A program made the position numbers and the translations under genes. A stretch of DNA of 64,000 nt from Hoyosella sp. YIM 151337 (GTDB lineage Bacteria > Actinomycetota > Actinomycetes > Mycobacteriales > Mycobacteriaceae). The notes below the pieces were generated by a model. That model had not been told where the DNA came from. It saw nothing but the letters and a program-made list of their open reading frames with translations, and did no database searches. The DNA lies in assembly GCF_026041215.1 (NCBI RefSeq), contig NZ_JAPEIQ010000048.1:1-64000 (forward strand), given 5' to 3'. Of the stretch, positions 2,066 to 34,180 are shown piece by piece. Within the stretch, counting starts at the first letter, position 1, and every line of letters begins with the position of its first letter.

Positions 2066-2348
2066 CCTTTGTCCTCCGCAGGGAATGCACCGTGCCTAAT
2101 CACGAGGACTAACTCCTTATTCCAGGACGAACACACCGACATAAAAGTCCATCTTGCTATGTTCGAACACGCGGAGCACGCTCCGACCGCACCAGTCCGC
2201 GCTGACCGTGGTCTTCGCCGGGTGGGTAGCTCACCGGTTTCTGGTTTGATTTCTGTTCAGCTGCACTAACGGGTCGCAGGTCGGCGTTGACGGTCCGGCA
2301 GGCTCGGCCGCTTCCCTCGATCACCCCTGCCGCACCGGCCCTACCGTA
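2066..2348. other. Intergenic stretch
   Basis: No gene is apparent. The region lies between a leftward gene starting at 2065 and a small rightward gene, so it should hold divergent promoters, but I cannot assign -35/-10 boxes with confidence apart from the LexA-type box at its right edge. Confidence 0.4.
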
Positions 2349-2364
2349 TCGAACATAGGTTCGA
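2349..2364 (+). promoter_or_regulatory. Perfect LexA (SOS) box
   Basis: The sequence TCGAAC-ATAG-GTTCGA is a perfect match to the mycobacterial/actinobacterial LexA operator TCGAAC-N4-GTTCGA and lies inside a slightly longer 7-bp-arm palindrome (2347-2366). It sits 11 bases before the first possible ATG of the small zinc-ribbon gene, and a TAGGAT -10-like hexamer follows at about 2372. This suggests damage-inducible transcription of the small gene from a promoter overlapping the box. Confidence 0.75.
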
Positions 2365-2375
2365 TAAGGGTTAGG

Positions 2376-2561
2376 ATGGGGTGTGTGTCCCCGCTGGTTG
2401 AGTGGTCTCCACGCATGTGCGGGAACGGCCACAAACTGGGCCCGGGAACGATGCTGGTGGGCTGGCAAACCACCGAGGAACCCTACTGCCGGATATGGGT
2501 ATGCCGCCGGTGCGGATGGACACTCCTCGACCGCTCCCGCTACTCACACAGGAGCCGCTGA
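2376..2561 (+). CDS. Small zinc-ribbon-like protein, probably SOS-controlled
   Basis: 61 residues from the first ATG. The core CGNGHKLGPG...VGWQTT...WVCRRCGWTLLDR has a CxxxH pair and a CxxC pair, as in a small zinc ribbon. I know this pattern (C-x-N-G-H-x-LGPGRVLVGW ... CRxCG) from short uncharacterised proteins common in mycobacteria, rhodococci and their plasmids or phages. An alternative ATG at 2415 would start directly at MCGNGHKLG. If the promoter uses the TAGGAT hexamer near 2372, that later start would be the real one. The gene lies directly behind a perfect LexA box, so SOS regulation is the best inference. Molecular function is unknown; it could bind nucleic acid or a partner protein. 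Confidence 0.6.
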   Translation: MGCVSPLVEWSPRMCGNGHKLGPGTMLVGWQTTEEPYCRIWVCRRCGWTLLDRSRYSHRSR

Positions 2562-2579: not shown

Positions 2580-5500
2580 TTAGAGTCCGGCTTCGCTGCA
2601 CTTTTCTTGTTGTAGTTGTGGTGTGTGCGAGGTGTGGTGTTCGCTGAGCTGCTGGTGGTGGGTGAATTTGGGTTTCACTGCGGCAGTGTTCCCGAGACCG
2701 GCAGCGCGGAGGTCGTTTTCGAGGTTGTCCTTGTTCGGGGAGGTGTGTGTGCGCGCGGTGTAGCGGCGGAGACTTTCGCGGGTGAGGTCTGCGTGGGTCA
2801 GCTCTTTTGCGGGGGTTTTCAGTTGTCCGTGCAGTGCTGACTCGGCATTGCTGCGGGCGCGGACTTGGGTATTTGCGGCGCCTGCGGCGAGTTCTCCTTC
2901 GCTGTTCCAGGCTTGCCAGTGCCATTGGTGTGCGTGCCAGTAGGTGCGTGCGCCTGGTTTGCCGCTGTCGGGGTCGTGTCCGTAGCGCAGTTCGTGTGCG
3001 CTGGGGCTAGTGGCCTGCCATGGGCTGGTGCGTGCTCGTTGTTCACGGTCCGCTGCGTCTGCGTGCCAGCGCTTTTGTGCGTCTGCCATGCGTTGGGGGA
3101 CGGAGGCGGTGAGTTGTTCACGGGTGGTGCCGCGTGCTTGTGCCCATCCTTCGGTGGGGTTGAGGTCGCGAGTCCAGCCACGGTATTGACCTTCGGAACG
3201 TCGGCGTTGTTCGTCGGCTGCTTGCCGCTCGAGGGCTTCGGGGGAGTTTTCGCGGGCGTTGACCTCGAGTCGGAGTTCGTGAGCTTGGAGTCGGGCGAGT
3301 TCGAGTTCTTCTGTTTCGGTGAACACGGCTTCGGGTTCTTTGAGTGCGGCGTCGAGTTTGGCGTTGTTTTCCTGGAGCTGGCGGTGCAGCGCTTCGGTTC
3401 GTGCGGGGACTTCTGCGGCCATGTTCCGCATAATTTTGAGCATGCCGTGTGCTGCTGCGTCGTTACGCAGGGTGTCGGTGACTTTGTCCCGGGCGAGGTA
3501 GCGGGTGCGTCCGTGGAGGGTGAGTCCGTACATCGCTGTTGCTGAGTTGTACGAGAGGGTGACCGCTGAGTCTTTGGTGATTGTTGCGACGGTCGGTTGC
3601 TGGTCGAGTGCGTGTTTGTTGCGGATTATTCCGGTGAGGGAATCGCGTAAGCCAGTGATGAGGCCGTTGGTGTCGTTGTCGGCGATGGAGCGGCCGTTGA
3701 ATTGCCAGTGTTTGCGGTCGCGCTGGGAGTTGATCCATGTGTCGATGTGACCGGTCGCCTCTTGTAGTTCGGGCAGCTGGTTTTCGATTGTCTGGATGCT
3801 GCGGCGCAGTGCTGCGATGCTGGCGCGGCGGGCTGCGTTCGCGTTGTCGACGGCTTTCTGCCGGGCTTCGAGGGTTTCTGCTTTCTGGTCAGCCTCGACT
3901 TGTTTGATGTAGACCTGGTCTCCGGTTGCTGCTGCTTTGGTTTGGGCCCAGGAGAGGGTGAGGTCCGCGCCGATGTCTTCCATTGTGGGCGGGAGGTCTT
4001 CGCTGCGGATCTGGGCGACGGCGCTGGCTTTGCGTTCGACGACTTGATACATGGTGGCGTCGTAAGAGCGGCGGGCGACGAGGTTGACGATGTTGACCTC
4101 GTCGTTGACGTTGCCTTGCCGGATACCTCGCCCGATTCGCTGTTCCATGTCGGCTGCTGTCCAGGCGGAGTCCATGTTCAGCACGGTTTTTAGTAGTCGC
4201 TGCGCGTTGAGTCCGGTGCCGCCTTTTTTGGTGGAGGTGATGAGCACACGGATGCGGCCGTCGCGACATGCTTCGATCATCTGGGTCTTGGCTTTTGCGG
4301 TTTTCGCGTCGTGAAGGAACGCGATCTGTTCTTGTGTCATTCCCCTGGCGATCAGTGCGTCGCGCAGTTCGGTGTAGACGTTTTGCGCGCGGGGCCCGTC
4401 GCCGGGTTTGGGTGTGCCGCGGTCACAGAAGACCAGCTGGAAGACACCGTCGGCGGCGGGGCCGTGTTTGTCGGCGGGGGTGTGCAGGGATGCGTTGTCG
4501 CTGTGGACTTTCCATAGGTAGTCGGCTGCTGCTTCGACACGGGATTTGTCCGGCGGCGGTGGGGCGAGACCTGCGAGACGCGGGTGCATGGTGGCGTTGC
4601 GTCCGTCTGTCGCGATTTTGAGTGTGTTGTCCCATGTCGGCTGTATCGGTTCGTGCAGTTCGGGGTGGCCTTGTTTGAGGTCGGCGAGACGGTCGTCGAG
4701 GTCGGCCATGAAGTCGAGGACTTCTTGTGGCATGTCGAATTCGAGGTTGTGCGCTTGTCCGCTTGCGATTGCGGGCAGCTTTACCGGGATGTCGTCGCGG
4801 GTGACGACGTCGCGGAATTGGTCGACCATCGCGACGAGCTGGGGAACGTTGGCGTACTCGGCCATGCGTGAGACCATGCGCAGTTTTGTTCCGGTGACGT
4901 TCATTTCGGCTTTGGTGACCGATTCAGCGAATGTTTGCGCCCAGTTGTCGATGCGACCGAGCCCAGTGTCGGTGAGCAGGTCGGGGCGGAGGAATTTGTT
5001 CATGACCCACAGTTCGGACAGGGAGTTGCTGACGGGGGTTCCGGTGGCGAACGCGAGGGCTTTAACTGGTGCGCCGGGACGGCCCAGTGCTTCGTTGCGG
5101 CGGGCACCTTCGGCGCGCAGGTAGCGGGCTTTCATCTCGAGGTCGGAGGCGCGCTGGCTGCCGTCGTTGACGGCGAGGTCCCGTGAGGCTGATGCTCGTG
5201 TGAGGTTTTTGTATTCGTGTGCTTCGTCCACCCACAGCGCGTCGCAGCCGGATTGTTCGAAGGTGAGGCCCTCATCGCTGCGGGTCTGCTCGATGATCTT
5301 TCTGATGCGGTCCTCAGTGGCTCGGATCGAGCGTTCGATTTGTTTGACGGTGAAGTCGGCGCCGTTCTGGTTAGCGGAATCGAGGGCCTGGCGCATGTCG
5401 GAGATCTCGTTTTCGAGGTACTCGATTTGCGCTTCTCGTTTCATGCCGATGAGGGTGAACACGCTCTGGGGGACGATGACGAGGTCCCAGTCCGCTGCTG

Positions 5501-8500
5501 CGGTCTGGCCGATGAATCGCTGTCGGTCTTCGGGGCCGGACATGTCTGTTCCGATGAGAATCTTGGCGTTGGGGTATGCGTCTCGGGCTTCGTTGGCCCA
5601 TTGGCCCAGCAGGTGGTTCGGGACAACTACCCAGGGCTGGCGGACCTGTCCGAGTCTTTTTGCTTCCATCGCGCTGACGGTGATGGTGAGGGTTTTCCCG
5701 GCACCGACCACGTGGTCGAGCAGGATGGTTTCGTCGTTGAGGTATCTCTGCACGGCGCGGGCCTGATAGTCATAGAGCCGGTACTTCGGGTTCAGTCCCG
5801 GGTATGTCTTGTGGGCGCCGCTGTAGACGGGCTTGACGAAGCTGTTGAACTTCTCGTTGAAGATGTGTTTCAACCGCAGGTAGCGGTCGCCGTCCGCCCA
5901 CATCCAGTCCGCGAATTTTTGCTGTAGCCCGGTCGCGGAGGCGCGGGCGGCGGCGGTGTGCTCGGGATGGTAGGAGGGGTTTGGGTTCGCTTCGAGTTCC
6001 TCGGCGGTTTTGTTGACGACGACGGGTTTGTTGTTGGCGATCATGTTGAAGATGTCGATCCCGCTGATGCGGCGGCTGCCGTACGGGTCGGGGTAGCCGC
6101 GGATGTCGTCGACGTGCCGGTTGTTCTGCTCGGTGGAAAAGGACCACTGTCCGGTGACCGGGTCAAGCTCTGTGGTGAGCCGGTCGGCGTCGAGTGTGAA
6201 CTCTTGGGTGAGGAACTGGCGGTAGTACTCGACTGGTACCCAGGTCGCGCCCGGCCGGATGTGAATATTGGCGGGTTCCACGTCGGGCGGGATGACAGCT
6301 TCGAGCGCCTCAACTACTCCGTCGTAGCGAGCAGGGTTGTGCTGTGCTCGCTGCCGCGCGAGCGCGAGTTTGTCGCGGATATGCCCGGAGAGGAACGTCG
6401 CCGCGAATTCCCAGCGGTGGTCGTCGTCGAGGGAAGGGTATATCGCCCCTTTTGCTGCGGTGAGGGTGTCTTCAGCGCTGCGGCCGAGCAGCTCGGCCAT
6501 TCGTTCGGGCCTGATCTCGCCGGTCTCGTCGAAACTGATCGCGGCGGCTTCTTCGACTGTTTCCGCGCTGACGGCGGGGTCGGTGAAGGGTGTGACGTCC
6601 TCGGTGAAGATGGGGCCTTTGCTGGCGGTGGCGTTGCTGCCGTCGTAGTCGGAGGTGAAGTCTTCGGCGCCGAGCACCATTCCCAGCCGGGGATCGCGGG
6701 CGATCGCGCCTTCGAGGTGACTGCGTACTTTTCTCGGCGTGCGGGGTGTTGATGCTTCGTCGAACAGGCGGTCCCGTACTTCGGCTGGGATTTCTCCGGT
6801 GTACGGCCTGGCGGTGGTGGGGTCAAGCCCGTTTTCGCGGGCTTCGGCTTTGCCTGCGTCGGTGCGCCACTTGGCGATCTTTTCTTCGAATGCTCTGTTG
6901 ATCGCGTCAGCGCTGAGTGCCTGCACTGCTTGGAGTTTGAAGCGGTTTACCGGCCCGAATTCGGCAGTGTATTGGTCATGCAGTGTGTTCAGTTGCTGGC
7001 GGAGGGCGTCGCGGTCAGCGCGCAGCGAATGGGGATCGCGGCTGGCTTCGTTTAGGTCAAGGATGGTCTGGCCCATATCCGTGATGAGCCGCCACTGCTG
7101 CTGCTTGGCTGCGCCGCGGCAGGTGACGGTGTTCCATCCGCTGCCGATGCTGAACTGTTCGAAGGTGTCAGTGACTTCGTTGTAGCGCAGTGTGCCCGGC
7201 AGGGTGTCGGTATCTCGTTCGGTTGCGGACGTATCCAGCAGCCCCGGCTCCCGCAGTGTGTCCTTGCCGGGGCCTGGCTGTGCGGTTAACGCAAGTCCCG
7301 TGTTACGGGCCTGCGCGATCAGTGGATCAAGCTGGGTGCGCAGTTGCGCGGACAGTGGCGTGTCTGTGCGGGGTGTGACAGTCAGCCCGGTCCGGCCGTG
7401 CAGGCCGCTGCCGAGTGCGAGTTCCCCGAGCACACGCTGTGGGTGTTCGGTGAAGTACCGGTTGATTCGCAGTGGTTCGAGATGGCCGGATCGTTCATTG
7501 CGGACTTCTGTCTCATCGATAGGACCTGCCCATAGAAGAGTGTCCGCGCTGGCCTGACGATCGTGCTCGCGGCGGCGGAAGATCAGAACATCGGTGACGA
7601 CATCGGTTTTGGCTTGCCGGTCGAACGCTCCGGTTGGCAGCCGGACCGCGGCGATCAGGTCACCGAGTCCGGCCATCCGCGCGCGTGCCTCCGGGCGGAC
7701 CGCGTCGCTGGTGTGTGCTGAGGTGATCATCGCGACGTAACCGCCCGGGGCGGTCAATGCCAGGCTTTTGACGATGAACTGGTTGTGCAGGGAAAACCCG
7801 TCAGGGTTGTGGACCGGGTCGTAGACACCGGTTTTCGCGAAGGGCACGTTGCCGATGGCGCCGCTGAATGCGCCGTCGGGGGCGAAGCTACGTTCAAAGC
7901 CGTGGTTCCGGATCTGTGCTGAGGGATACAGGTGATGCGCGATGTGCGCGCTGATTTCTTCGATCTCGACGCCCACCATGTGCACACCGGCAGGTGCGGT
8001 GCCGATGAAATTTCCGCTGCCGCAGCCCGGCTCGAGGATAAGGGCACCCTCTGGCAGGCCCGCCCGCTGCAGGGCCCGCCACATTTCGTGCACAACAGCC
8101 GGGTCGGTGTAGTGGGCGTTAAGAGTGGTGGCTCGTGCTGCCCCGAAACCTTTGTCTCCGAGCAGCTCACGCAGTTCAGCTTGTTCGGCTTCCCATTCCT
8201 GCGCGAATCGCTGCCGGTTATCGAATACCTCTGGGGTGGCGCCCCAGCCTGACCACTGCGCGAGGATGGATTGTTCCTGCGCGGTTGCGGCGCGGCCTTG
8301 TTCATCGAGGAGACGGATCAGGCGGACAGCTTCGATGTTCGCGCGTACTCGCGCTTTAGCCCCTGACGGGACAACGACCTCAGCGCCCAGGGCGAAGTTA
8401 CGCCCGGCTGGCGCGCCCTGGCCCAATGCGGCGTGATGTTGCGGGGCGGCTGCCGGATCTGGGGTGGGCTGGTTCTGTGATGTGTGTTGTCCGGATGGTT

Positions 8501-9779
8501 TCTCAGCCTGGCCCGGCTGGTGTTCTGCGGCTGTTTCCCGGTACTGCGCGGCCTGCTCGGGGGTGAGGTAACGGATTGACCCGGATTCTGTGATCGCGGG
8601 CACGAGGGTGCGCTCGCGCCAGGCCGGGTGCGTGAGCGGCGGGCCCCACACGTCGTCCGGGATGACAATCTCCGGCCGTGGCGCGGCTATGCCCTCAGCT
8701 GGCTGCTGTGTGTTCTCCGCGGCGGCGATATCGATGGCGTCTTGCTGTTGTTCCACCTGTTCAGAGCGCTGCGCAGCGGCGGCTCTGAACGCGTCGGTGT
8801 CGTCGCTGATCTCCGCTTCCGCAGCCACGGACTCAGCCTCTGGCGGCGCGGTGGTATCGATGATGTCCTGGAGTGCGGACAGGAGCGGCTCGCCTGGTTC
8901 GCGTTGCTGCTCAACTCGTTCACGCAGCTGCGTAATCGCGGGGTCAGGCTCTGCGGCTCCGCGGCGCTGCTCCCAGTACGCGGCGGCGGCACGCTCACCA
9001 GTTTTCTGCCATCTCGTCTGGTCGTTGAGGAATGCGTGCAGCTCGTCGCGCAGCGCCAGAGTCGTGCCAGGATCGAGCGCGAGTTCCCCGGCCTCAAGGA
9101 CTGCACGCTGGGTGAAATGTGCGTGAGCGATTGCAGCGTACTGATCGAACGTGTTTGCCGGAGACGCTGCGACAGCGTCGATCTCCGGGTCATGCTTGCA
9201 GAGACGCTGGATAAGCAGGGTTTCCGCCTTAACCGGTGGTTCGTGCCCGGTCTCACTGGCTGGCCCCACGGATTCGCTGCGTGCGGTAATCGTGTGTGAC
9301 TCGGCCGGGGCCTGGCGGGGCGCTGGGGTGGTGAGGGCATGGATTAGATCGCTGGCTTCACCTTTCGTCAGATCTAGCTCAGGGGCGTAGTCCTGGCCAG
9401 CTTCACCGCTGAGGCGCTTGAGTGTCCGTAACTGGAGATCGGTTGCGGGCTCGGCCCGCCAGTCACGTCCCCGCTTGCGCCGCGGGGCCTGGATAGCGAG
9501 GGACTGCGAGACCTCAGCGGGGTCAATTCCGGCTTCGCGCAGCTGGTGTGCAAGCTGGGCGTCACGGTCAGCAAGTGCGCGCCATTCGTGACGCAGCCGC
9601 TCCAATTCACTGCGGAGCTGTTCGGCGCGGGCCGCATTGGTGGCAACGCCCTCGCTGAGGCCGCGAGCTTCAGCGGCTTCTAACGCCCGCTTAGCTGAGG
9701 CGAGACGCTTCGCGACTGTGCGCCCGCGCTCAACAATTCCCAGAACGTCGCGGTGCGCAACGGCCCACGCGTGCTGCAG
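2580..9779 (-). CDS. Giant N6-DNA methylase / SNF2-type helicase (DarB-like anti-restriction protein)
   Basis: About 2,399 residues if translation starts near 9779. Visible order: a helical N-terminus; a small domain around QLRTLKRLSGEAGQ; an N6-adenine methylase core with SAM motif EPGCGSGNFIG (about residue 583) and a modified catalytic motif GNVPFA (about 642, in place of the usual NPPY/F); then an SF2 helicase with Walker A GAGKT (about 1358), DEAH in WVDEAHEYKN (about 1517), ATGTPVSNSLSELW and motif VI RIGRGIRQGN (about 1880); and a long coiled C-terminus. The same methylase-helicase fusion is found in phage P1 DarB and in large proteins of conjugative elements, where DarB protects incoming DNA from type I restriction. 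That role is inferred here. Whether the NVPF motif is catalytic is uncertain. There is no ATG/GTG/TTG near the natural 5' end: the frame opens inside the upstream gene and the nearest candidate is a CTG at 9779, so CTG initiation, translational coupling or frameshifting is possible. Confidence 0.85.
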   Translation of the reverse strand: MQHAWAVAHRDVLGIVERGRTVAKRLASAKRALEAAEARGLSEGVATNAARAEQLRSELERLRHEWRALADRDAQLAHQLREAGIDPAEVSQSLAIQAPRRKRGRDWRAEPATDLQLRTLKRLSGEAGQDYAPELDLTKGEASDLIHALTTPAPRQAPAESHTITARSESVGPASETGHEPPVKAETLLIQRLCKHDPEIDAVAASPANTFDQYAAIAHAHFTQRAVLEAGELALDPGTTLALRDELHAFLNDQTRWQKTGERAAAAYWEQRRGAAEPDPAITQLRERVEQQREPGEPLLSALQDIIDTTAPPEAESVAAEAEISDDTDAFRAAAAQRSEQVEQQQDAIDIAAAENTQQPAEGIAAPRPEIVIPDDVWGPPLTHPAWRERTLVPAITESGSIRYLTPEQAAQYRETAAEHQPGQAEKPSGQHTSQNQPTPDPAAAPQHHAALGQGAPAGRNFALGAEVVVPSGAKARVRANIEAVRLIRLLDEQGRAATAQEQSILAQWSGWGATPEVFDNRQRFAQEWEAEQAELRELLGDKGFGAARATTLNAHYTDPAVVHEMWRALQRAGLPEGALILEPGCGSGNFIGTAPAGVHMVGVEIEEISAHIAHHLYPSAQIRNHGFERSFAPDGAFSGAIGNVPFAKTGVYDPVHNPDGFSLHNQFIVKSLALTAPGGYVAMITSAHTSDAVRPEARARMAGLGDLIAAVRLPTGAFDRQAKTDVVTDVLIFRRREHDRQASADTLLWAGPIDETEVRNERSGHLEPLRINRYFTEHPQRVLGELALGSGLHGRTGLTVTPRTDTPLSAQLRTQLDPLIAQARNTGLALTAQPGPGKDTLREPGLLDTSATERDTDTLPGTLRYNEVTDTFEQFSIGSGWNTVTCRGAAKQQQWRLITDMGQTILDLNEASRDPHSLRADRDALRQQLNTLHDQYTAEFGPVNRFKLQAVQALSADAINRAFEEKIAKWRTDAGKAEARENGLDPTTARPYTGEIPAEVRDRLFDEASTPRTPRKVRSHLEGAIARDPRLGMVLGAEDFTSDYDGSNATASKGPIFTEDVTPFTDPAVSAETVEEAAAISFDETGEIRPERMAELLGRSAEDTLTAAKGAIYPSLDDDHRWEFAATFLSGHIRDKLALARQRAQHNPARYDGVVEALEAVIPPDVEPANIHIRPGATWVPVEYYRQFLTQEFTLDADRLTTELDPVTGQWSFSTEQNNRHVDDIRGYPDPYGSRRISGIDIFNMIANNKPVVVNKTAEELEANPNPSYHPEHTAAARASATGLQQKFADWMWADGDRYLRLKHIFNEKFNSFVKPVYSGAHKTYPGLNPKYRLYDYQARAVQRYLNDETILLDHVVGAGKTLTITVSAMEAKRLGQVRQPWVVVPNHLLGQWANEARDAYPNAKILIGTDMSGPEDRQRFIGQTAAADWDLVIVPQSVFTLIGMKREAQIEYLENEISDMRQALDSANQNGADFTVKQIERSIRATEDRIRKIIEQTRSDEGLTFEQSGCDALWVDEAHEYKNLTRASASRDLAVNDGSQRASDLEMKARYLRAEGARRNEALGRPGAPVKALAFATGTPVSNSLSELWVMNKFLRPDLLTDTGLGRIDNWAQTFAESVTKAEMNVTGTKLRMVSRMAEYANVPQLVAMVDQFRDVVTRDDIPVKLPAIASGQAHNLEFDMPQEVLDFMADLDDRLADLKQGHPELHEPIQPTWDNTLKIATDGRNATMHPRLAGLAPPPPDKSRVEAAADYLWKVHSDNASLHTPADKHGPAADGVFQLVFCDRGTPKPGDGPRAQNVYTELRDALIARGMTQEQIAFLHDAKTAKAKTQMIEACRDGRIRVLITSTKKGGTGLNAQRLLKTVLNMDSAWTAADMEQRIGRGIRQGNVNDEVNIVNLVARRSYDATMYQVVERKASAVAQIRSEDLPPTMEDIGADLTLSWAQTKAAATGDQVYIKQVEADQKAETLEARQKAVDNANAARRASIAALRRSIQTIENQLPELQEATGHIDTWINSQRDRKHWQFNGRSIADNDTNGLITGLRDSLTGIIRNKHALDQQPTVATITKDSAVTLSYNSATAMYGLTLHGRTRYLARDKVTDTLRNDAAAHGMLKIMRNMAAEVPARTEALHRQLQENNAKLDAALKEPEAVFTETEELELARLQAHELRLEVNARENSPEALERQAADEQRRRSEGQYRGWTRDLNPTEGWAQARGTTREQLTASVPQRMADAQKRWHADAADREQRARTSPWQATSPSAHELRYGHDPDSGKPGARTYWHAHQWHWQAWNSEGELAAGAANTQVRARSNAESALHGQLKTPAKELTHADLTRESLRRYTARTHTSPNKDNLENDLRAAGLGNTAAVKPKFTHHQQLSEHHTSHTPQLQQEKCSEAGL

Positions 9780-9781
9780 GT

Positions 9782-10426
9782 CTAGAACGGAAGATCGGGA
9801 TTCTCGGGCGGGTTCGCCTGCAGTTCGTCCAGGATCATCTCCTCCAGCTCGTCCGCGAGCGGATCGTGCGGTGTCGCCGGGACCGGCTGATTGTCCTCGA
9901 TCCGCTGCGCTATAAGCGCTTCCGCTAACGCTTTGAACGCCCCTGGCTTGTGCATCCAGACCCGGTCCACGACCTTCGCTGCGACCGGATTCGGCTGAAC
10001 GTTCTGCGTCTTCCACCGGTCGGGCTCGCGGGCTTTGAGCGCCCGGTCGTACTCCCGCTGGATCTGCTGCTCCATTGCCGCGAGATACGTTTGCTTGTCC
10101 TGCTTCATTTCCGGCGTCACCAGGGAATACAACTCCTGGGCGAGCACCATTTCCCGCGCTTGCCTCCACGCGCTCTCCCGCGCCTGGATTTTCGTGCGGA
10201 AGCTCGGTGTCTGTCCCGGCGGAGTCCACTCCTGCAGCGCCTGATGCTCGAACGCCTCGGCCGCGTCCTCGGTCATCTGCTGCAGCCGCAGCGCTTCCCG
10301 ATCGATCTGGTCCTGCTTCTCGGACGGACTCAGCGCCGGGTCTAGCCCGACCCATTCGGTCAGAATCCGGTGCGTCTCGCTCGCTATCTGCGGATCGATT
10401 CCCTCGATCTGGTCCCTGTCCACCAT
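9782..10426 (-). CDS. Hypothetical helical protein paired with the giant methylase-helicase
   Basis: 214 residues from the ATG at 10426 (MVDRDQIEGIDPQIAS). The composition is that of a real soluble, charged, alpha-helical protein (for example QIDREALRLQQMTEDAAEAF and MEQQIQREYDRALKAREP), unlike the low-complexity overlapping frame. I recognise no domain. It ends (TTC TAG) only a few bases before the point where the giant methylase-helicase frame becomes protein-like, so the two are almost certainly co-transcribed and translationally coupled. Its product may be a small partner of the large enzyme. A longer N-terminus running to 10834 is open but looks non-coding. Confidence 0.75.
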   Translation of the reverse strand: MVDRDQIEGIDPQIASETHRILTEWVGLDPALSPSEKQDQIDREALRLQQMTEDAAEAFEHQALQEWTPPGQTPSFRTKIQARESAWRQAREMVLAQELYSLVTPEMKQDKQTYLAAMEQQIQREYDRALKAREPDRWKTQNVQPNPVAAKVVDRVWMHKPGAFKALAEALIAQRIEDNQPVPATPHDPLADELEEMILDELQANPPENPDLPF

Positions 10427-10603
10427 CCCCGTCGCTCCCCTCGCCGTAATAAAACTCGAATGCGCCCTGGCTCTCGCTGCGCTGCGCCACCCGGCCCCCT
10501 CGTACTCACCCCTGCACTCCGGTTGCATCCCCCTCGCGAGCACTGGAGGGGCACGACACGCTCCAGACCCTACCAGCCGGTAACATGAAAAATCGCTTTG
10601 ACC

Positions 10604-22139: not shown

Positions 22140-22236
22140 GCGATGGTGTTGTGATCGGTTCGGGCTGCGGGCGGGTGCGGTAGGTGCTTGGCTTGGCTGC
22201 CGATGAGGTTGGTCGGTGTGCTGGAGGTCGGGTTTC

Positions 22237-25200
22237 ATGGCGACGCAGGTATTCGCGGCTGAGGAGTTGGCGCGTCTGCGGGAGTTTCCAGAAGTCAGCC
22301 GCGAGGAGCTGTTCCGGTTCTTCACGCTGACGTCGGCCGATATCGCGTTCGTCGCGCCGGGGCGGGGGCGTGGTCCGGAGGATCAGCTCGGTCTGGCGGT
22401 GGCGTTGTGCACGCTGCCGTGGCTGGGGTTCGTGCCGGACAAGGTCGCCGCCGCGCCGCCGGTGGTGGTGGCACGGTTGGCGGATCAGCTGAAAGTCGAT
22501 GCGTCGCAGATCCGTTCGTACGGCCGCCGGGCGCAGACCCGCACCGCGCATCTGCACCTGGTGGCCCAGTATCTGAGCTGGCAGAGCGCGGGTGCGATGG
22601 AGTTGAAAGAACTCGACGAGTTCCTGTTGGCGCGGGCGATGGAGCACGATTCCCCGACCCTGCTGTTTCGGTTGGGGTGTGAGTATCTGATCTCGGCGCG
22701 GGTGATCCGGCCCAGCCCCGACACCGTGGTCCGCCGCGTCGTGCACGCGCGTGAGCAGGCCCAACGAGAGACCTACGACCGGTTGGCGCATGAGCTGACG
22801 CCGCAACGCTGCGCGGAGTTGGACGGCTTGCTGGTCACCGATGTCTCGATCCGGATGTCTCGGTTGCGGTGGCTGTCGACGCCTCCGGTGGAGGCGTCGA
22901 CAGCCGCTGTGCGCAACGAGGTCGAGAAGCTGGAGTTCGTGCGCGGTTTGGGCGCGGACACTCTTGATCTGTCGGTGTTGCCGACTGAGCGTCGCCGGTT
23001 CCTGGCCATGCTGGGCCGCCGTCTGACCGGGCAGGCGTTGGAGCGTCGCGATCCGCAGCGCCGGTATCCGATCTTGTTGACGGTGCTGGCGCAGTCGGCC
23101 GCTGATGTGCTCGATGAGGTGGTGGCGTTGTTCGATCAGGCGCTGTCGGGGAAGTTCAGTGCCGCGGAGAACCGGATGCGCGAGCAACTGGCCGACCGGG
23201 CGAAGACCGGGGAGGACCGGCAAGCGCTGCTGGATGACCTCCTATCCATCCTCATCGACCCGCAGATCCCTGATGAGGATGTGGGCGGGTTGATCCGGGG
23301 CGGAAGCATCGGGTTGGAGCGGTTGCGTGCGGCGATTGCGCAGGCCCAGCCGCGGTTGCCGCGTGATCACGGGCATCTGGCCGCTCTCGATAGTTCGTAT
23401 TCGTATCTGAGGAAGTTCACTCCGGCGGTGTTGTCGGCGGTCCGGTTCTCCGGTGGTACGGCGGCGACGGAGTTGCTGATCGCGGTGGACATGCTGCGCG
23501 AACTCAACGCGACCGGTCGCCGCAAGGTGTTCGACGACGCACCGGCGGGGTTCGTGCCGACCAAGTGGCGCGGTTATCTCGAGGAGGCCCGCAAGACCGG
23601 CAATACCGTTGCCTATCGTCACTTTTGGGAGCTGTGCGTGCTGCTCGGGTTGCGGGACGGGCTGCGTACCGGGGACGTGTTCGTGCCCGGATCACGCCGC
23701 TACGCCGACCCGGCCGCCTACCTGCTCACCCCGACCCAATGGGAGCCGCAGCGAGCCGAATTCTGCCGCCTGGTCGACAAACCCGCCGACCCGGCCGCCG
23801 CGTTGGCCGCGCTCACCGACGAGTGGTTGACGGCGGTCGGTGAGCTGGAGCAGATGCTCGCCGCCGGTGACGGGCCGGTGCGCTTGGACGAGACCGGTGA
23901 TCTGGTGATCTCCCCGCTGAGCGCCGAGGACATTCCGACCGAGGCCATCGAGTTGAAGGCCGAGCTGACCGAGATGCTGCCGTTCGCGCCGATCGTGTCG
24001 GTGCTGATCGAGATGGACAAGCGCACCGGCTACCTGGATTGTTTCACCCACGCGGGCGGCAAGCAGACGCGGAGCCCGGAGTTGAAACGCAATCTGATCG
24101 CGGTGCTGCTGGCGTACTCGACGAACCTCGGTCTCACCAATATGGCTGCGGCGTCGGGGATCTCCTACGACATTCTGTCCTGGACCGCGGAGTGGTATGT
24201 GCGGGAGGAGACGCTGCGCGCGGCGAACCTGGCGATCATCGGCTACCACCAGAGACTGCCACTGACCACGGTGTTCGGCACCGGCACACTCTCGTCATCG
24301 GACGGGCAGAGGTTCCCGACGCGCGGCAAATCGGTCACCGCCCGTGCGGTGAATCACTTCTTCGCCGAGGAGGGCCTGTCGACCTATACCCACGTCACCG
24401 ATCAGCACACCACCTACGGCACCAAGGTCATCGTTACCACCCGCCGCGAAGCCCACTACGTCCTGGACGAAATCCTCGGCAACGCAACGGATCTGCCAGT
24501 CACCGAGCATGCGACCGATACTCACGGGGTCACCCTGGTGAACTTCGCGCTGTTCGATCTGCTGGGGATGCAGCTGTCCCCGCGTATCCGGGATCTGGGC
24601 AAGATCACCCTGTACCGGCCGGTGCCGCGCGCCGAGGCCGACACCCTGTTCCCGCACGCCGGCGCTCTGCTGACACGGAAGTTGAACCTGGACCTGATCG
24701 CCGAGCATTACGACGACCTGCTGCGGCTGGCCGGATCGCTGAAGTTCGGGCACGCCACCGCCTCGCTGCTGGTCGGCAAGCTCTCGGCGTCGGGAAGACA
24801 GAACGCCCTCGCCGCAGCATTGAAAGAGTACGGGGCGATGCGCCGCACCATCTATGCCTGCCGGTATCTGACCGACCCTGACTACCGGCGCAAGATCTCG
24901 CGCCAGCTCAACAAGGGCGAATCCATCCACGCCCTCAAACGTGGCCTCCTCTATGCCCACGAAGGAGCCTTCCGCGCCCGTCACTTGGAAGCCCAGACCG
25001 AGCAGGCATGGTGTCTGACCCTGGTCACCAACGCCCTCATCACCTGGACCACCGAGTATTACGGGCTGGCGGTCGAGCAGATGCGCCGGGCTGGGCGGCG
25101 CATCGACGAGGAGGTCTTGGCCCACATCTCGCCCGCGCACAGCGCCAACATCAACTTCTTCGGCGCGATCGAGGTCGACATCGACGCCGAGTTGGCTCAG

Positions 25201-25251
25201 CTCGGACCCACCGGCTACCGGCCGTTGCGGGTCCGCGACACCCTGTTCTGA
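22237..25251 (+). CDS. tnpA: Tn3-family transposase (intact)
   Basis: 1004 residues from the ATG at 22,237, with GGAGG about 9 bases upstream; the length is normal for TnpA. DDE catalytic residues are visible in [13 protein letters not shown] (Asp, about residue 688), [19 protein letters not shown] (Asp, about 762) and [13 protein letters not shown] (Glu, about 894). The C-terminus ends normally ([20 protein letters not shown]). It makes a cointegrate between donor and target, later resolved by the resolvase at 44,292. Its start lies ~100 bases inside the left inverted repeat and it reads inward, an arrangement that leaves tnpA and tnpR at opposite ends of the element. Confidence 0.95.
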
Positions 25252-25812: not shown

Positions 25813-26016
25813 CCCGTCCCGGGCTTCTTCGGCGAGGTCGATGCTGAACATGCGGTTGCCCAGGTCCGCGCCTTGCAGGGCGAGGATACGGAGGATCCAG
25901 CCGTCGCTGGAACACGGCCGTGTGTTAGGAACGCGTTTCGAGTAGCACGGTTCTGACGATCGGGTAGCGCGAGTATGAGCATCCGGTAGCGGTAGCCGAG
26001 GCGATGTGCTCGTCTC

Positions 26017-26052
26017 GGGTTCACGCGTGGCAATTCGGCTGCGCGTGAACCC
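26017..26052. repeat. Inverted repeat upstream of istA
   Basis: GGGTTCACGCG and CGCGTGAACCC form perfect 11-bp arms around a 14-base spacer immediately before the istA ribosome binding site. IS21-family ends carry transposase-binding repeats near the left terminus; this may be part of that set, or a hairpin limiting read-through translation of istA. I could not identify a matching right end after istB. Confidence 0.55.
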
Positions 26053-26068
26053 GAAACAGGAGGCACGG

Positions 26069-27715
26069 GTGACTGATTACCGATTGGTGATGTCACAGTT
26101 GCTGCAAGGCAGGTCGTACCGGGAGATCGAAGCGATCGCAGGATGCTCGCACCGCACGATCGCCAAAGCGAAGAAGATCTGCGGTGAACGGGAGCTGACC
26201 ACCGAGGACCAGATCGAGGCGTTGACCGCCGAGGAGATCGACGCCTTGTTCACCGATGGGCGAAAGAACGCCTCAATCGATTTCGTGATGTTCGATGTCG
26301 CCGCCGCGGTGAAGAAGCGCTCAGGCAAGAAGAAGCTCCCACTGCGGGTGCTGTGGGCCAACTACCTGGAAACCGAAGGGGCGCCGGGGCAGCGGCACTA
26401 CAGCTACCAGCGGTTCTGCCAGATCATCGGTGAGTACGTCGAGGTCAACGATCTGACGATGCGGATCGCGCACGTACCCGGGCACACGATGCAGGTCGAC
26501 TGGGCCGGCACCACGATGGCGATCTTCGACCCGGTCACCGGCAGCAGGACCCGGGTGTCGGTGTTCGTGGCATCGCTGCCGTACTCGGGCATGGTCTTCG
26601 CCTGCGGATGCCTGGACGAGAAGGCAGCGAACTGGCTCGATGCCCACGTGCAGGCATTCGAGTACTTCGGCGGCGTCACGCAAGTGGTCGTGCCCGATAA
26701 CACCTCGACCGCGTCGAACCAGATCACACGCGGGGACAGGGCCCGCGAGGTCAACCACGCCTACCGGGACTTCCTCGAGTACCACCGCACCGCCGCGGTG
26801 CCCACCAGAGCGGTGCGGCCCCGCGACAAGGGGCACGTCGAGTCCGGGGTCAAGATCGTGACGAACTGGGTGATCGGCCGACTCGCCGACCGCCGGTTCG
26901 CCAGCCTGGACGACCTGGGCGAGGCCATCAACGTCCAGGTCGATCAGATCAATGACCGCATCCCGTTCCGCGGACAGAAGATCAGCCGGCGGGAGTTGTT
27001 CGCCGAGCACGAGCAGCCACAACTGCTGGCGCTGCCCGACGCACGGTGGCAGCCGGTGACCTGGAGGAAATCCAAGGTCAACAGGGATTACCACGTCGAG
27101 ATCGCGACGGTGAAGTATTCGGTGCCCCACACCTTCGCCGGTCAGCTCGTCGATGTGAAGATCACCGGCGAAACACTCGCAATCATGTGCGACGGAGAAG
27201 TCATCGCCTCCCATGCCGTCTCCGGGCGCCGGCACTCGTACGTCACCGACCCCGAGCACGTGCCCGCCCAGCATCTGCAATCCTCGGATCTGTGGTCCCG
27301 GGCGTACTTCGTGCGCCAGGCCCACAAGGTCGGTCCGTGCACCGTGGCCGCGATCAGCGACCTGCTCGACCGGCAACGCATCGAGGCCCAGGGCTACCGC
27401 TCGTGCCAGAACATCCTCGCCCTGGGGAAGAGCGACAAACAACTCCTCGAGCGGGCTTGCGGGCAACTTGTCTCCGAACAGACCCGACGGGCGATCTCCT
27501 ACACCGCGGTCAAGCAACGCCTGGCGGCGCTGCGGGCCCAGGCCGCCGCACGACCGACCACCGCGGCGGAACCAGCGACTGCTGCGTCGGTAGCGCCACC
27601 GGCGGGACAGCGCGACACCACCGGGGCGCATCTGGCCGGGCCCGAGCAGTTCAGCCTTTCTGCCTTGACCGGAGCCACCGGAGCCGACTTGACGGATGAG
27701 GGAGGGGCCAAGTGA
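26069..27715 (+). CDS. istA: IS21-family transposase IstA
   Basis: 548 residues from the GTG at 26,069, behind AGGAGG. An N-terminal helix-turn-helix (SYREIEAIAGCSHRTIAKAK) is followed by an rve integrase core with DDE residues in MQVDWAGTTM, VVPDNTSTASN and KGHVESGVKI. IstA cuts and joins the ends of IS21 elements with the help of the ATPase IstB, which is encoded next and overlaps by GTGA. It looks intact. It sits between the truncated tetR copy and the araC gene and may have supplied a portable breakpoint when the P450 cargo entered the transposon. Confidence 0.94.
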   Translation: MTDYRLVMSQLLQGRSYREIEAIAGCSHRTIAKAKKICGERELTTEDQIEALTAEEIDALFTDGRKNASIDFVMFDVAAAVKKRSGKKKLPLRVLWANYLETEGAPGQRHYSYQRFCQIIGEYVEVNDLTMRIAHVPGHTMQVDWAGTTMAIFDPVTGSRTRVSVFVASLPYSGMVFACGCLDEKAANWLDAHVQAFEYFGGVTQVVVPDNTSTASNQITRGDRAREVNHAYRDFLEYHRTAAVPTRAVRPRDKGHVESGVKIVTNWVIGRLADRRFASLDDLGEAINVQVDQINDRIPFRGQKISRRELFAEHEQPQLLALPDARWQPVTWRKSKVNRDYHVEIATVKYSVPHTFAGQLVDVKITGETLAIMCDGEVIASHAVSGRRHSYVTDPEHVPAQHLQSSDLWSRAYFVRQAHKVGPCTVAAISDLLDRQRIEAQGYRSCQNILALGKSDKQLLERACGQLVSEQTRRAISYTAVKQRLAALRAQAAARPTTAAEPATAASVAPPAGQRDTTGAHLAGPEQFSLSALTGATGADLTDEGGAK

Positions 27716-30060: not shown

Positions 30061-31449
30061 ATGAAGATTCCTGAAGCAATCACCGCCAAGGTTCAGTCGA
30101 CCATCCCGATGGATCTGCAGATCCAGGGCGCGCATCTGTATGACAAGACCCGGCGATGGGTGACCGGGACGAACGGAGAGAAGCTCTTCGTCGAGAGTCC
30201 TATCCCGCCGGTCGAGGACGTCGAGCTCGCCGACATCGACCTCAGCAACCCTTTTCTCTATCGCCAGGGGCGCTGGCAGTCCTACTTCGAGCGCTTGCGC
30301 AACGAGGCGCCGGTCCACTACCAGCCCAACAGTGCGTTCGGTCCGTTCTGGTCTGTCACGCGGCATGCCGACATCGTGGCCGTGGACAAGAACCACGAGC
30401 TCTTCTCCGCCGAGCCGTTCATTGTCATCGGGGCCCCGCCTCGTTTCCTTGATATCGCGATGTTCATCGCGATGGATCCGCCACGCCACGACGCGCAGCG
30501 GGCCGCTGTCCAAGGCGTTGTTGCGCCGAAGAACCTGCGTGAGATGGAGGGGCTGATTCGATCGCGTGTGCAGGAGGTGCTGGACGACCTGCCCGTGGAT
30601 CAGCCGTTCGACTGGGTGCAGAACGTCTCGATCGAGTTGACCGCTCGGATGCTTGCCACCCTTCTGGACTTCCCGTACGAGCAGCGTCGCAAGCTCGTCT
30701 ACTGGTCAGATCTCGCGACGTCGCTGGAGCAAGCCAACGGCGGGCCCTCGGACAACGACGAGGTGTTCCCCGGCATGCGCGACATGGCGCGAGGTCTCAG
30801 CGCTCTCTGGCACGACAAGGCAGCGCGGATGGCTGCCGGGGAGGAACCCGGCTTCGATCTGATCACCATGTTGCAGAGCAACGAGAACACCAAGGACCTG
30901 ATCGACCGCCCGATGGAATTCTTGGGCAACCTCGTGCTGCTGATCGTCGGAGGCAACGACACGACCCGCAACTCGATGAGCGGCGGTGTTCTTGCGCTGA
31001 ACCGCTTCCCCGATCAGTTCGAGAAGCTGAAGGCAAACCCCGACCTGATCCCCAACATGGGCTCGGAGATCATCCGGTGGCAAACCCCGCTGGCTTATAT
31101 GCGCCGGGTCGCCAAGGCCGACACCATTCTGAACGGGCAGTTCATCCGCAAGGGCGACAAAGTAGTGATGTGGTACGCCTCGGGCAACCGCGACGAGCGC
31201 GTGTTCGAACGGCCCGATGAGTTCATCATCGACCGGGCCAACGCCCGCAACCACATCTCCTTCGGCTTCGGCGTCCATCGTTGTATGGGCAACCGGCTGG
31301 CCGAGCTCCAGCTGCGGATCCTGTGGGAGGAGTTGCTTCCCCGTTTCGACAATATCGAGGTCGTCGGCGAGCCAGAGTACGTGCAGTCCAATTTCGTGAG
31401 GGGCATCAGCAAGATGATGGTCCGCCTCACCCCGAAATCCAGCGCATGA
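30061..31449 (+). CDS. Cytochrome P450, CYP153-type alkane/fatty-chain terminal hydroxylase
   Basis: 462 residues. Diagnostic stretches match CYP153: LLIVGGNDTTRNSMSGG on the I helix (about residue 295-310), SEIIRWQTPLAYMRRVA around the ExxR, and the heme loop ISFGFGVHRCMGNRLAELQ with the axial Cys near residue 407. CYP153 enzymes hydroxylate the terminal carbon of C5-C16 alkanes and some fatty acids. Partner ferredoxin and ferredoxin reductase flank it, and the stop overlaps the reductase start (ATGA). The genetic set resembles the ahpGHI operon of Mycobacterium sp. HXN-1500. Subfamily and chain-length preference cannot be read from sequence alone. Confidence 0.9.
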   Translation: MKIPEAITAKVQSTIPMDLQIQGAHLYDKTRRWVTGTNGEKLFVESPIPPVEDVELADIDLSNPFLYRQGRWQSYFERLRNEAPVHYQPNSAFGPFWSVTRHADIVAVDKNHELFSAEPFIVIGAPPRFLDIAMFIAMDPPRHDAQRAAVQGVVAPKNLREMEGLIRSRVQEVLDDLPVDQPFDWVQNVSIELTARMLATLLDFPYEQRRKLVYWSDLATSLEQANGGPSDNDEVFPGMRDMARGLSALWHDKAARMAAGEEPGFDLITMLQSNENTKDLIDRPMEFLGNLVLLIVGGNDTTRNSMSGGVLALNRFPDQFEKLKANPDLIPNMGSEIIRWQTPLAYMRRVAKADTILNGQFIRKGDKVVMWYASGNRDERVFERPDEFIIDRANARNHISFGFGVHRCMGNRLAELQLRILWEELLPRFDNIEVVGEPEYVQSNFVRGISKMMVRLTPKSSA

Positions 31450-32648
31450 CCTCGCAGCGGGCCCTCATCGTCGGGGCCGGCCATGCCGGGGCCCAACTCG
31501 CGGCCAGTCTGCGCCAGGAAGGGTGGACCGGTGAGATCGTCCTCATCGGCGAGGAGTCGGCGCTGCCCTATCAACGCCCGCCGCTGTCGAAGGGTTACCT
31601 GGCGGGGAAGAGCACGCTCGACGAACTCGCGATCCGCAGCGCCAAATTCTACACCGAGCAGGGGATCCAACTCCTGAATGCGAAGGTGGAGGCGATCGAC
31701 CGCTCGGCTGGTCATCTCGTGTTGAGCACCGGCGACGCGCTGCCCTACGACAAGCTCGCGCTGTGCACTGGGGCCCGCCCTCGACGGCTTTCCATCCCGG
31801 GGGCCGACCTGGTCGGCGTCTACTACCTACGCACCGCTGCGGACGTCGAGATGATCCGAGAGGCCACCAGCCCCGGGTGTCGGGCTGTGATCATCGGCGG
31901 CGGCTACATCGGACTGGAGACGGCCGCCTCATTGCGTGCGCTCGGTCTGGAGGTCACTGTACTCGAGGCGACCGAGCGCGTCCTCGAACGGGTCACCGCC
32001 CCCGCTGTATCGGCGTTCTTCGACCGGATCCACCGGGAGGAGGGCGTGAACATCCGGACGGGCGCGCTGGTCGAAGCTCTATCAGGTGACGGCAGGGTCC
32101 GCGAGGTGTTCCTGTCCAGTGGCGAATCAATTCCCACCGACCTCGTCATTGTCGGTATCGGCGTTGAGCCGAACACCGAGCTCGCCGCCGCCGCGGGTCT
32201 GGTCGTCGACAACGGCGTCGTGATCGACGACCAGACCCGGACCAGCGACCCCGACATCGTGGCGGCTGGGGACTGCGCCAGCCATGACATGGCCCGTTAC
32301 GGCCGTCGCATACGCCTGGAGTCCGTGCCGAGTGCGGGTGAGCAGGCCAAGGTGGCGGCCGCGACCGTCTGCGGCAAGTCCAAGATGATCGCGGCGCTTC
32401 CATGGTTCTGGTCGGATCAATACGATCTCAAGCTCCAGATCGCCGGTCTCAACACCGGGTACGACGAAGTCGTCCTCAGCGGCGACCCGACCCGGGACCG
32501 CGACTTCACCTGCTTCTACCTGCGTGCGGGCGAGCTCATCGCCGCCGACTGCATCAACCGGCCCCGTCACTTCATGTTCAGCAAGCGGGTCATCACGCAG
32601 CGACTCCCCATTGGCCGGACCGAACTGGTGCTCGCAGGCTCTGTCTGA
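31446..32648 (+). CDS. Ferredoxin reductase, FAD/NAD(P)H-dependent
   Basis: 400 residues from the ATG overlapping the CYP153 stop. Two Rossmann dinucleotide motifs are visible: ALIVGAGHAGAQLAASL at the N-terminus (FAD) and VIIGGGYIGLETAASL (NADH, about residue 145), plus the FAD-contacting TSDPDIVAAGDCA. This matches rubredoxin/putidaredoxin reductase-type flavoproteins. It should pass electrons from NADH to the upstream ferredoxin and on to the CYP153. No defects seen. Confidence 0.94.
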   Translation: MTSQRALIVGAGHAGAQLAASLRQEGWTGEIVLIGEESALPYQRPPLSKGYLAGKSTLDELAIRSAKFYTEQGIQLLNAKVEAIDRSAGHLVLSTGDALPYDKLALCTGARPRRLSIPGADLVGVYYLRTAADVEMIREATSPGCRAVIIGGGYIGLETAASLRALGLEVTVLEATERVLERVTAPAVSAFFDRIHREEGVNIRTGALVEALSGDGRVREVFLSSGESIPTDLVIVGIGVEPNTELAAAAGLVVDNGVVIDDQTRTSDPDIVAAGDCASHDMARYGRRIRLESVPSAGEQAKVAAATVCGKSKMIAALPWFWSDQYDLKLQIAGLNTGYDEVVLSGDPTRDRDFTCFYLRAGELIAADCINRPRHFMFSKRVITQRLPIGRTELVLAGSV

Positions 32649-32719
32649 GGTGATCGGTCCCTTGGCGGCGATGGTACGACAACAGCGAGTACGGGCCCAC
32701 ATTTCGGAAAGGAACGTCA

Positions 32720-34180
32720 GTGACGAACATCATCCAGCTCCCGCTGGCGAAGGGTCGTGAGCGGCTCTCGTCGGTATTCCTGGCACCATTGCCGAGTCGG
32801 GCCGACGCGACCCTGCTAGGGGTCAGCGACCAGTGGCCTGTTCGTGAGCTCGCCCCGCCCCCGGCGGGGTCGGGGCTCGAGCCCGTCCGAGGGACCGCGG
32901 GCATGCCTCTGCTCGGTCACACCCTGGACTACATCAGGTTCGGCTCCAACTTCACCCGGGCCAGGTACCAACGCTTCGGACCGGTCTGGTGGATGGGCGC
33001 CTTCGGCACGAGAATCGTGATGGTGGCGGGCGCGGATGCCACACAGGAGGCGCTGACGACCAAGGCGAAGTCGTTCTCCCAGGACGGGTGGACCTATCTC
33101 ATCGATGCTTTCTTTCACCGGGGCCTGATGCTGATGAGCTTCGACGAGCACAGGATGCATCGGCGGATCATGCAGGAGGCGTTCACCCGCGACCGGCTCG
33201 CCGGCTACGTCGACCAGCTCGGCCCGACGCTGGAGACCAGCATCCGCAGGTGGACAGCGGGCCGGTCCACGCGCATCTACCCACTGTTGAAGGCCCTGAC
33301 TCTCGACGTCGCAACGGAGGTCTTCATGGCAGGTCGGGGAGGGAGCGAGGACACTGACGCCATCAACGACGCCTTCGTGGCCACCGTGCGCGCAGCCAGC
33401 TCGATCATCCGTTTCCCGCTGCCGGGGACTCGGTGGCGCGCCGGAGTCCATGGGCGCACGCTCCTGGAGGACTACTTCACCCGGCATCTGCCGACGGCTC
33501 GAAGTGCCCAGGGAGACGACCTCTTTGCGGGGCTGTGCCATGCGCGCACGGCCGACGGTGAGGCGTTCACTGATGAGGACGTCGTCAACCACATGATCTT
33601 CTTGATGATGGCGGCCCACGATACCTCGACCATCACCACCACCGCTGCCGCCTACTTCCTCGCCAAGCACCCAGCCTGGCAGGAACGGGCTCGGGCCGAG
33701 TCCGACCGACTCGGTGAACGCCGCCCCGACATCGACGACCTGGACTCGATGGCGACTCTCGACCTGGTGATCAAGGAGACGCTGCGCCTCGTGGCGCCCG
33801 TGCCGATCGTGATGCGCAAGACGATCGAGAACGTGGAGATTGCCGGACGCCACATCCCGGCGGACACCCTGGTGGCCGTGGCTCCTGCGGTGAACCACTT
33901 CGACGAGTCGTGCTGGACCGAGCCCGACACCTTCGACCCCGACCGTTTCAGCGAGCCGCGCCATGAGGACCAGAATCACCGTTTCGGGTGGATCCCCTTC
34001 GGCGGAGGAGTGCACAAGTGCATTGGTCTGCACTTCGGCACCCTCGAGGTCAAGGCGATCCTGCACCACATGCTGCGCACTTACACCTGGTCGGTCCCCG
34101 ACCAGTATGAAGTGAGATGGGACAACACCTCGCTCCCCATTCCTGTCGACGGGTTGCCGATCACCCTGGAGCGCAGATGA
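32720..34180 (+). CDS. Second cytochrome P450
   Basis: 486 residues, GTG start. The N-terminus has PVRGTAGMPLLGHTLDYIRF, then the I-helix MMAAHDTSTITTT (about residue 299), KETLRLVAPVPIVMRK (ExxR) and the heme loop WIPFGGGVHKCIGLHFG with Cys near 433. It is quite unlike the upstream CYP153 and closer in style to mycobacterial CYP51/CYP136-like P450s, so the substrate is probably different. A 71-base gap after the reductase could hold a second promoter. Its stop overlaps the next gene (ATGA), tying it to the transglutaminase-like, dehydrogenase and acyl-transfer genes downstream. It could draw electrons from the same ferredoxin. Confidence 0.9.
   Translation: MTNIIQLPLAKGRERLSSVFLAPLPSRADATLLGVSDQWPVRELAPPPAGSGLEPVRGTAGMPLLGHTLDYIRFGSNFTRARYQRFGPVWWMGAFGTRIVMVAGADATQEALTTKAKSFSQDGWTYLIDAFFHRGLMLMSFDEHRMHRRIMQEAFTRDRLAGYVDQLGPTLETSIRRWTAGRSTRIYPLLKALTLDVATEVFMAGRGGSEDTDAINDAFVATVRAASSIIRFPLPGTRWRAGVHGRTLLEDYFTRHLPTARSAQGDDLFAGLCHARTADGEAFTDEDVVNHMIFLMMAAHDTSTITTTAAAYFLAKHPAWQERARAESDRLGERRPDIDDLDSMATLDLVIKETLRLVAPVPIVMRKTIENVEIAGRHIPADTLVAVAPAVNHFDESCWTEPDTFDPDRFSEPRHEDQNHRFGWIPFGGGVHKCIGLHFGTLEVKAILHHMLRTYTWSVPDQYEVRWDNTSLPIPVDGLPITLERR

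Follow-up and report, generated by a model that had tools for sequence, protein, structure and literature searches.

A LexA operator between a small zinc-ribbon gene and a covarying RNA hairpin in Hoyosella: a probable two-way SOS promoter with relatives on chromosomes, plasmids and prophages

A perfect SOS operator in the genome of the soil actinobacterium Hoyosella sp. YIM 151337 probably belongs to a bidirectional promoter, from which the mRNA of a zinc-ribbon protein would be transcribed to the right and a hairpin RNA to the left. It was found in a stretch of 64,000 bases, hereafter the window, which corresponds to bases 1-64000 of an 84.7 kb contig (C43) in a genome of 4.9 Mb. The regulation of this locus appears well supported by comparison, through box conservation, promoter position, -10 hexamers, a covarying hairpin and the coupling of hairpin and box, whereas LexA binding, the existence of both RNAs and the roles and functions of the products are what we infer. 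The locus comprises the following features, given in window positions:

2349..2364, no strand: LexA (SOS) box TCGAACATAGGTTCGA, both half-sites perfect (motif scan and Hoyosella comparison)
2371..2376, + strand: probable rightward -10, TAGGAT (position relative to the start as in most boxed copies)
2385..2561, + strand: zinc-ribbon protein gene, probable leaderless GTG start, 58 aa plus stop (alternative start ATG 2376, 61 aa)
2343..2348, - strand: probable leftward -10, TACGGT (a TANNNT left of the box, as in other hairpin copies)
about 2291..2337, - strand: divergent hairpin, core 2301-2327, loop AGGGAAG at 2311-2317
2157..2234, - strand: short leftward ORF (VSYPPGEDHGQRGLVR...), from sequence reading

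The first-pass annotation had reported an exact actinobacterial SOS operator in front of a tiny gene, and this holds well beyond chance: in a motif scan, TCGAACATAGGTTCGA at 2349-2364 is the sole LexA site of the window without mismatch, the remaining 45 matches to TCGAAC-N4-GTTCGA carrying 2 or 3 mismatches each. Many boxes of the family carry the variant TCGAACANNTGTGCGA, which fits the LexA consensus measured in Streptomyces venezuelae, tCGAAC-N4-GNNCGa, as given in the available part of that study (PMC9380542). Seven perfect sites were detected genome-wide. Two of them precede members of the zinc-ribbon family (in the window and on contig C42), two have DUF222-HNH ORFs directly downstream, one lies inside an open frame just 5' of a DUF222 domain, one precedes imuA' (NCBIfam repair_Rv3395c), and one is flanked by genes for GNAT and HEPN_SAV_6107 proteins; in addition, two boxes with one mismatch lie ~220-250 bp 5' of a match to the LexA DNA-binding domain. 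Since perfect or one-mismatch boxes thus stand at the imuA', lexA, DUF222 and HEPN_SAV_6107 genes, the window box is of the host's own SOS operator type. With regard to membership in the Mycobacteriales LexA regulon, the operator lies at a promoter, in a host that has LexA and known SOS genes under the same operator. The 8.3 kb contig C42 carries a second module of box, gene and hairpin (L176), whose protein is 91% identical to that of the window.

The box is retained in four Hoyosella copies, one of them with a single mismatch, the search having covered three genomes of the genus, and its conservation extends well beyond Hoyosella. With at most two mismatches, it occurs within 200 nt in 45 of 83 family copies, versus 13 of 1241 control stretches from the same loci, and at 26 of 43 further loci. 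This second set comprises 43 of the 47 loci L104-L150 (L108, L110, L112 and L114 were already counted) and includes repeats (such as L118/L119, L105/L124 and L104, which coincides with L021) as well as L117, probably no true relative. Once near-identical regions, these repeats among them, were merged, such a box was found before 68 of 121 distinct copies, versus 1.05% of shuffles; the other 53 have no box at this threshold, and none was found in a mycobacteriophage-like subclade and in chromosomal Hoyosella paralogues. The weak matches L004 and L005 were left out of the box counts, as were 17 of 90 family places found by profile; these are weaker, at E 2.6e-7 to 9e-4, and nine contain stops that lie in frame or almost in frame. 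Conservation of the box upstream of homologues, which the first-pass annotation had named as a check, is seen on plasmids, prophages and chromosomes. The operator-position classes were mapped on a protein tree built from 98 sequences and 60 columns. Many of its forks are unresolved, but the well-supported branches by themselves require the three main classes to have been gained or lost at least 5, 4 and 3 times, respectively; the operator was apparently relocated or reacquired repeatedly and still retained. Two Hoyosella chromosomes carry boxless paralogues (L015, L016) with ~190 extra in-frame residues after the zinc ribbon.

To the right of the box, the predicted 61-residue protein with CxxxH and CxxC motifs proved partly right: the ORF (2376-2561, + strand) and its motifs are real, but the start is probably different. 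The ATG at 2376 overlaps the probable -10 TAGGAT, a GTG equivalent to 2385 is kept in all four Hoyosella copies compared, and the copies of plasmid pAS9A-2 and H. altamirensis have no counterpart of the ATG; translation therefore probably starts at GTG 2385 and yields a product of 58 aa. A -10 hexamer ends 6-7 nt 5' of an ATG or GTG in 50 of the 67 boxed copies, other spacings being represented by 1 to 13 copies each (overlapping bins 5 and 7 set aside), and in the remaining 17 no such arrangement was seen; 11 of 83 rows had been omitted from the first promoter comparison for want of the motif. So short a distance suggests that the rightward mRNA is probably leaderless. In these 50 copies, the spacing between box end and start codon is -10 or -8 (14 copies), 4 (1), 10 to 13 (23) or 19 to 20 (12), which means that the box covers the core promoter. 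Control by LexA, as first proposed from the box, thus appears strongly supported by box conservation, by identity with the host's SOS boxes and by promoter position wherever a -10 was recognised. The homologous gene of phage ReT1v-1, RPTV1_310 (L009 3908-4216), is annotated with a start upstream of the SOS box; its -10 and its relatives suggest a start ~84 nt further in.

That the product is a zinc protein, also part of the first-pass annotation, is supported by residues C12, H16, C40 and C43 (58-aa numbering), invariant across 28 aligned rows, and by an AF2 model of moderate confidence (mean pLDDT 78, pTM 0.59) showing a zinc ribbon in which a beta hairpin links two metal knuckles; metal binding is accordingly a prediction. 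Searches of Pfam (up to E 1) and NCBIfam (up to E 0.1) gave no match to the protein, a sequence search of the PDB returned just short, weak zinc-finger-like matches, and the Foldseek matches to zinc ribbons of TFIIS/RPB9 and archaeal Rpp21 are weak (E 0.19 or worse, Z <= 5.7). As a working guess, we take it for a small protein binding nucleic acid or RNA polymerase; that it might tune transfer, replication or host stress, as suggested in the first-pass annotation, is a conjecture.

The protein matches PHROG family phrog_12017 (E 3e-4), for which the PHROG library gives no function. By profile search, 69 of 397 Mycobacteriales genomes, from 25 of 86 genera, contain a member of the family; in a sample of the phylum the family occurs in 5 of 396 genomes, all five within the window's own taxonomic family. 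Named relatives belong to Rhodococcus, Mycolicibacterium, Dietzia, Nocardia and Hoyosella, and plasmid homologues to Rhodococcus, Gordonia and Hoyosella. Family members are present at 33 loci of IMG/VR, while a scan of viral contigs with the single protein gave no relative. That the small ORF is no gene, and its box a relic or a product of chance, appears extremely improbable: the ORF is indeed unannotated in all 13 plasmid records matched, whose gene table is incomplete, but such a reading is contradicted by the box conservation described above, by dN/dS values of 0.12-0.50 over six Hoyosella pairs, by the match of all 28 members of alignment A5 to phrog_12017 (E <= 0.01), and by the annotation of phage homologues as hypothetical proteins. 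The copy of phage ReT1v-1 has the lysis side on one side and the integrase on the other. A search for a conserved partner gene found none, the neighbours varying between loci. In five genomes of taxonomic family f4 (L158, L159, L160, L164, L167) the chromosomal zinc-ribbon gene adjoins an RNase II (RNB) gene, identified by Pfam in four of them and by BLAST cluster in L158; a LexA-type box with at most two mismatches lies near the gene in 4 of the 5 (L164 has none), and the RNase II neighbour was taken to reflect local synteny in these five genomes.

To the left of the box, aligning the four Hoyosella copies revealed an inverted repeat with a constant loop, a divergent arm that was absent from the first-pass annotation. 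We searched each of the 67 boxed copies for it, moving left from the box, with GGGAAG kept unpaired and the 3' arm starting directly behind it: 36 copies have a hairpin, versus 11 of 1340 shuffles. Dropping three doubtful ones (L027, L034, L035) leaves 33, the window included, and an earlier, stricter search had given 30. The motif usually appears as the loop AGGGAAG; the short form of the hairpin is stem-AGGGAAG-stem, and the long form has an additional inner helix 5' of GGGAAG. Twenty-nine of 32 hairpins lie near a box with at most one mismatch, many of them representing a single place under several locus names. A TANNNT starting 0-12 nt left of the box is found in 31 of the 33 hairpin copies, versus 6 of the 34 other boxed copies and 4 of 198 background stretches. 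A -10 within 3-10 nt of the folded 5' end occurs in only 6 of the 36, as the folds reach into the leader through weak pairs. The 34 boxed copies without hairpin include all 12 whose start codon lies inside the box. The window's own hairpin is imperfect and among the weaker ones (fold z-score -1.78, with 11 of 200 shuffles folding equally well), and its unconstrained minimum-energy fold pairs part of the loop.

Within an alignment of 28 rows that were not selected for pairing, the stem of this hairpin covaries. Paired cells amount to 77% (56% in shuffles), cells changed on both sides to 70 (23 in shuffles), and the covariation score to 0.499, versus 0.159 in shuffles and at most 0.23 in slid versions. 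Doubly changed pairs number 8, no more than in shuffles, of which 217 of 500 are as high. GGGAAG is constant by construction, as it served as the selection motif; the flanking loop base and the closing pairs are nearly constant too. The rows of alignment A9 were selected by motif and box only, with duplicates excluded as well as L178 and L180, two motif sites without a box; those of alignment A8 were mostly selected for pairing. Against Rfam 15, no covariance model matched any of 25 sources at its gathering score; four matches reached E 0.14-0.58 and 23.7-28.2 bits (gathering scores 72-100), one of which, CC2171 at E 0.51, overlaps sequence to the left of the phage ReT1v-1 box. We set aside a reading of the loop as a CsrA-type or anti-Shine-Dalgarno site, which it seems to fit poorly. 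Among open-licence papers, we recognised none on this hairpin or gene family.

The coupling of hairpin and box is also found by searching whole genomes. Three of the four best matches to the hairpin model in the host's own genome adjoin perfect boxes (C42, the window and C33), the window being third-best, and the second-best match lies inside an ORF and has no box. Matches at E <= 0.01 occur in 69 of 301 genomes of the window's taxonomic family. A box with at most one mismatch lies within 220 nt of 68 of the 83 matches examined (28/30 and 40/53) and the other 15 have no close box; the two left from a total of 85 (G002:C2, G000:C42) are Hoyosella loci with a known box. A pattern based on sequence only (perfect box, 15-45 nt, GGGAAGC) is matched in 87 of the 301 genomes, its reversed control giving 0 among the matches listed, and in an order-wide sample it occurs in 16 of 150 genomes, the reversed control in none. 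Matches of this sample beyond the own genome fall in families f5, f13, f14 and f16 (G006, G015, G016, G057, G142 and others), and some may be due to chance. We checked pairing at 30 of ~100 pattern places (19 distinct): the flanks pair ungapped over 3 to 10 of 10 positions, in full at 11 of the 30, and 13 pair at 6 or fewer, a level that the best of 21 control GGGAAGC sites reach as well.

Many chromosomal hairpins sit between the box and what is apparently the same gene; the two tested (L186, L211) encode HEPN_SAV_6107 (PF18726, Pfam). HEPN_SAV_6107-type readings, including L189-L192, L197-L199, L201-L206 and L210-L218, have a LexA box and an AGGGAAG leader hairpin, often together with a motif of the PafBC type. 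The damage motif tTGTCRgtg-N8-TannnT, searched with a loose pattern, is present in 23 of 53 promoters examined, and is tied to PafBC and LexA-independent induction in the available part of PMC5656591. HEPN_SAV_6107 itself is described as actinobacterial, with a 'No' in what appears to be the conserved-motif column, in the accessible portion of PMC3710099. In one genus an MFS transporter gene lies behind the hairpin, and at L252 (box with 2 mismatches) an ORF of the zinc-ribbon family lies downstream of it on the same strand.

These layouts bear on two other explanations of the left arm. SOS control might be limited to the zinc-ribbon gene, the box serving one promoter and the hairpin being another element, for example a terminator of neighbouring transcription on either strand. 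Some model matches are indeed followed by a U-run and resemble terminators (L236, L242, L258), and phage ReT1v-1 has a second, stronger hairpin further left, beyond which lie annotated + strand genes, the nearest ending ~160 nt away. Yet 31 of the 33 hairpin copies have a TANNNT just left of the box, a terminator would have no need of the near-constant flanking loop base and closing pairs, and in the own genome the hairpin stands between a perfect box and a HEPN gene of the same strand, with like layouts elsewhere; we thus consider this explanation unlikely. A U-rich tail behind the stem was found in just 4 of 33 hairpin copies, and a second, terminator-like hairpin with five Ts in prophage copy L136 would fit a short RNA.

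Alternatively, the hairpin could be a cis-acting 5' leader of the gene behind it, HEPN_SAV_6107 on chromosomes or a small ORF in Hoyosella plasmids, the mobile elements having merely acquired both the SOS promoter and its leader from a host. The position between box and apparent HEPN gene in many genomes agrees with this, and so does a 51-aa ORF downstream of the hairpin in pAS9A-2, for which the leftward RNA could be the leader; the window ORF at 2157-2234, into which its leftward RNA could lead, is apparently a truncated form of that gene. However, in phage ReT1v-1 the leftward direction is antisense to + strand genes, and the stems of chromosomal and mobile copies differ, which speaks against a recent uptake. 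We regard a cis-acting leader as a serious candidate, though one falling short of an even chance.

Under the two-way promoter that we favour, LexA bound at 2349-2364 would cover both promoters and would be removed upon DNA damage. Rightward transcription would then yield a leaderless mRNA for the 58-aa zinc-ribbon protein, and leftward transcription an RNA with a 5' hairpin exposing the near-constant 7-nt loop AGGGAAG. The occurrence of the same loop on unrelated stems, at host and at mobile loci, points to a shared trans-acting reader; as a working guess, the loop may be the recognition site of a host factor that would also read the leader hairpin of chromosomal HEPN_SAV_6107. It is conceivable, though on the whole doubtful, that the AGGGAAG hairpin represents a new class of SOS-controlled regulatory RNA of Mycobacteriales with a host reader, and that the phage and plasmid copies, with an unrelated stem and the same loop, act as mimics or decoys of the SOS leader of the host; co-expressed with a zinc ribbon that perhaps binds the hairpin or its reader, they would retune the host damage response during replication or transfer.

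The locus had been described as plasmid-borne, which remains likely on indirect grounds. The closest relative of the window gene lies on a MOBF plasmid, pAS9A-2 of Hoyosella subflava, also beside a helicase gene, and the window carries transposase genes, but no replication or relaxase gene was found among the ten large ORFs and four pieces of the window scanned. The - strand gene at 2580-10490 encodes a protein of 2636 aa that has SNF2-type helicase regions and others with weak likeness to methyltransferases, and a helicase-related gene beside or near the zinc-ribbon gene is found in a Rhodococcus ruber plasmid as well as in pAS9A-2. Further along (22216-25248, 26006-27712, 30061-34180, 54874-56592) lie Tn3 and Mu-type transposase genes, two cytochrome P450 genes and a cutinase-domain gene.

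If this reading is correct, a largely unannotated family of SOS-controlled proteins would span rhodococci, hoyosellae and their relatives together with their prophages and plasmids, and an SOS-linked RNA hairpin absent from Rfam would run through the same hosts and mobile elements. An RNA layer would thereby be added to the actinobacterial DNA damage response, into which mobile elements would plug via the shared loop.

By layout, the closest known cases seem to be symE/symR and tisB/istR of E. coli. In the latter, IstR-2 is LexA-controlled, and we know of no tisB/istR counterpart of the AGGGAAG hairpin. Zinc ribbons of TFIIS/RPB9 and archaeal Rpp21 share the knuckle-hairpin-knuckle arrangement with the window protein, a likeness too weak to imply homology. 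According to the available part of PMC8607333, the mycobacterial LexA operators of dnaE2, recA and rv3074 have the same 16-bp box as the window, directly followed by the -10-like TATACT in the case of dnaE2; they control other genes, and no hairpin arm is mentioned in that part. Like the module proposed for the window, symE/symR unites a LexA-repressed SOS gene for a small protein with a small RNA at the same locus (available part of PMC1891008), but there the RNA, SymR, is cis-encoded relative to the SOS-induced gene, whereas the putative RNA of the window is divergent and the protein a zinc ribbon. The tisB/istR locus likewise couples a LexA-controlled small protein to an RNA partner (available part of PMC8145889), TisB being a membrane-acting toxin and the system enterobacterial; both comparisons concern layout, not sequence. 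The sequence layout of the window, with its putative transcripts, fits the arrangement of one LexA operator over a small protein and an RNA, as in tisB/istR and symE/symR.
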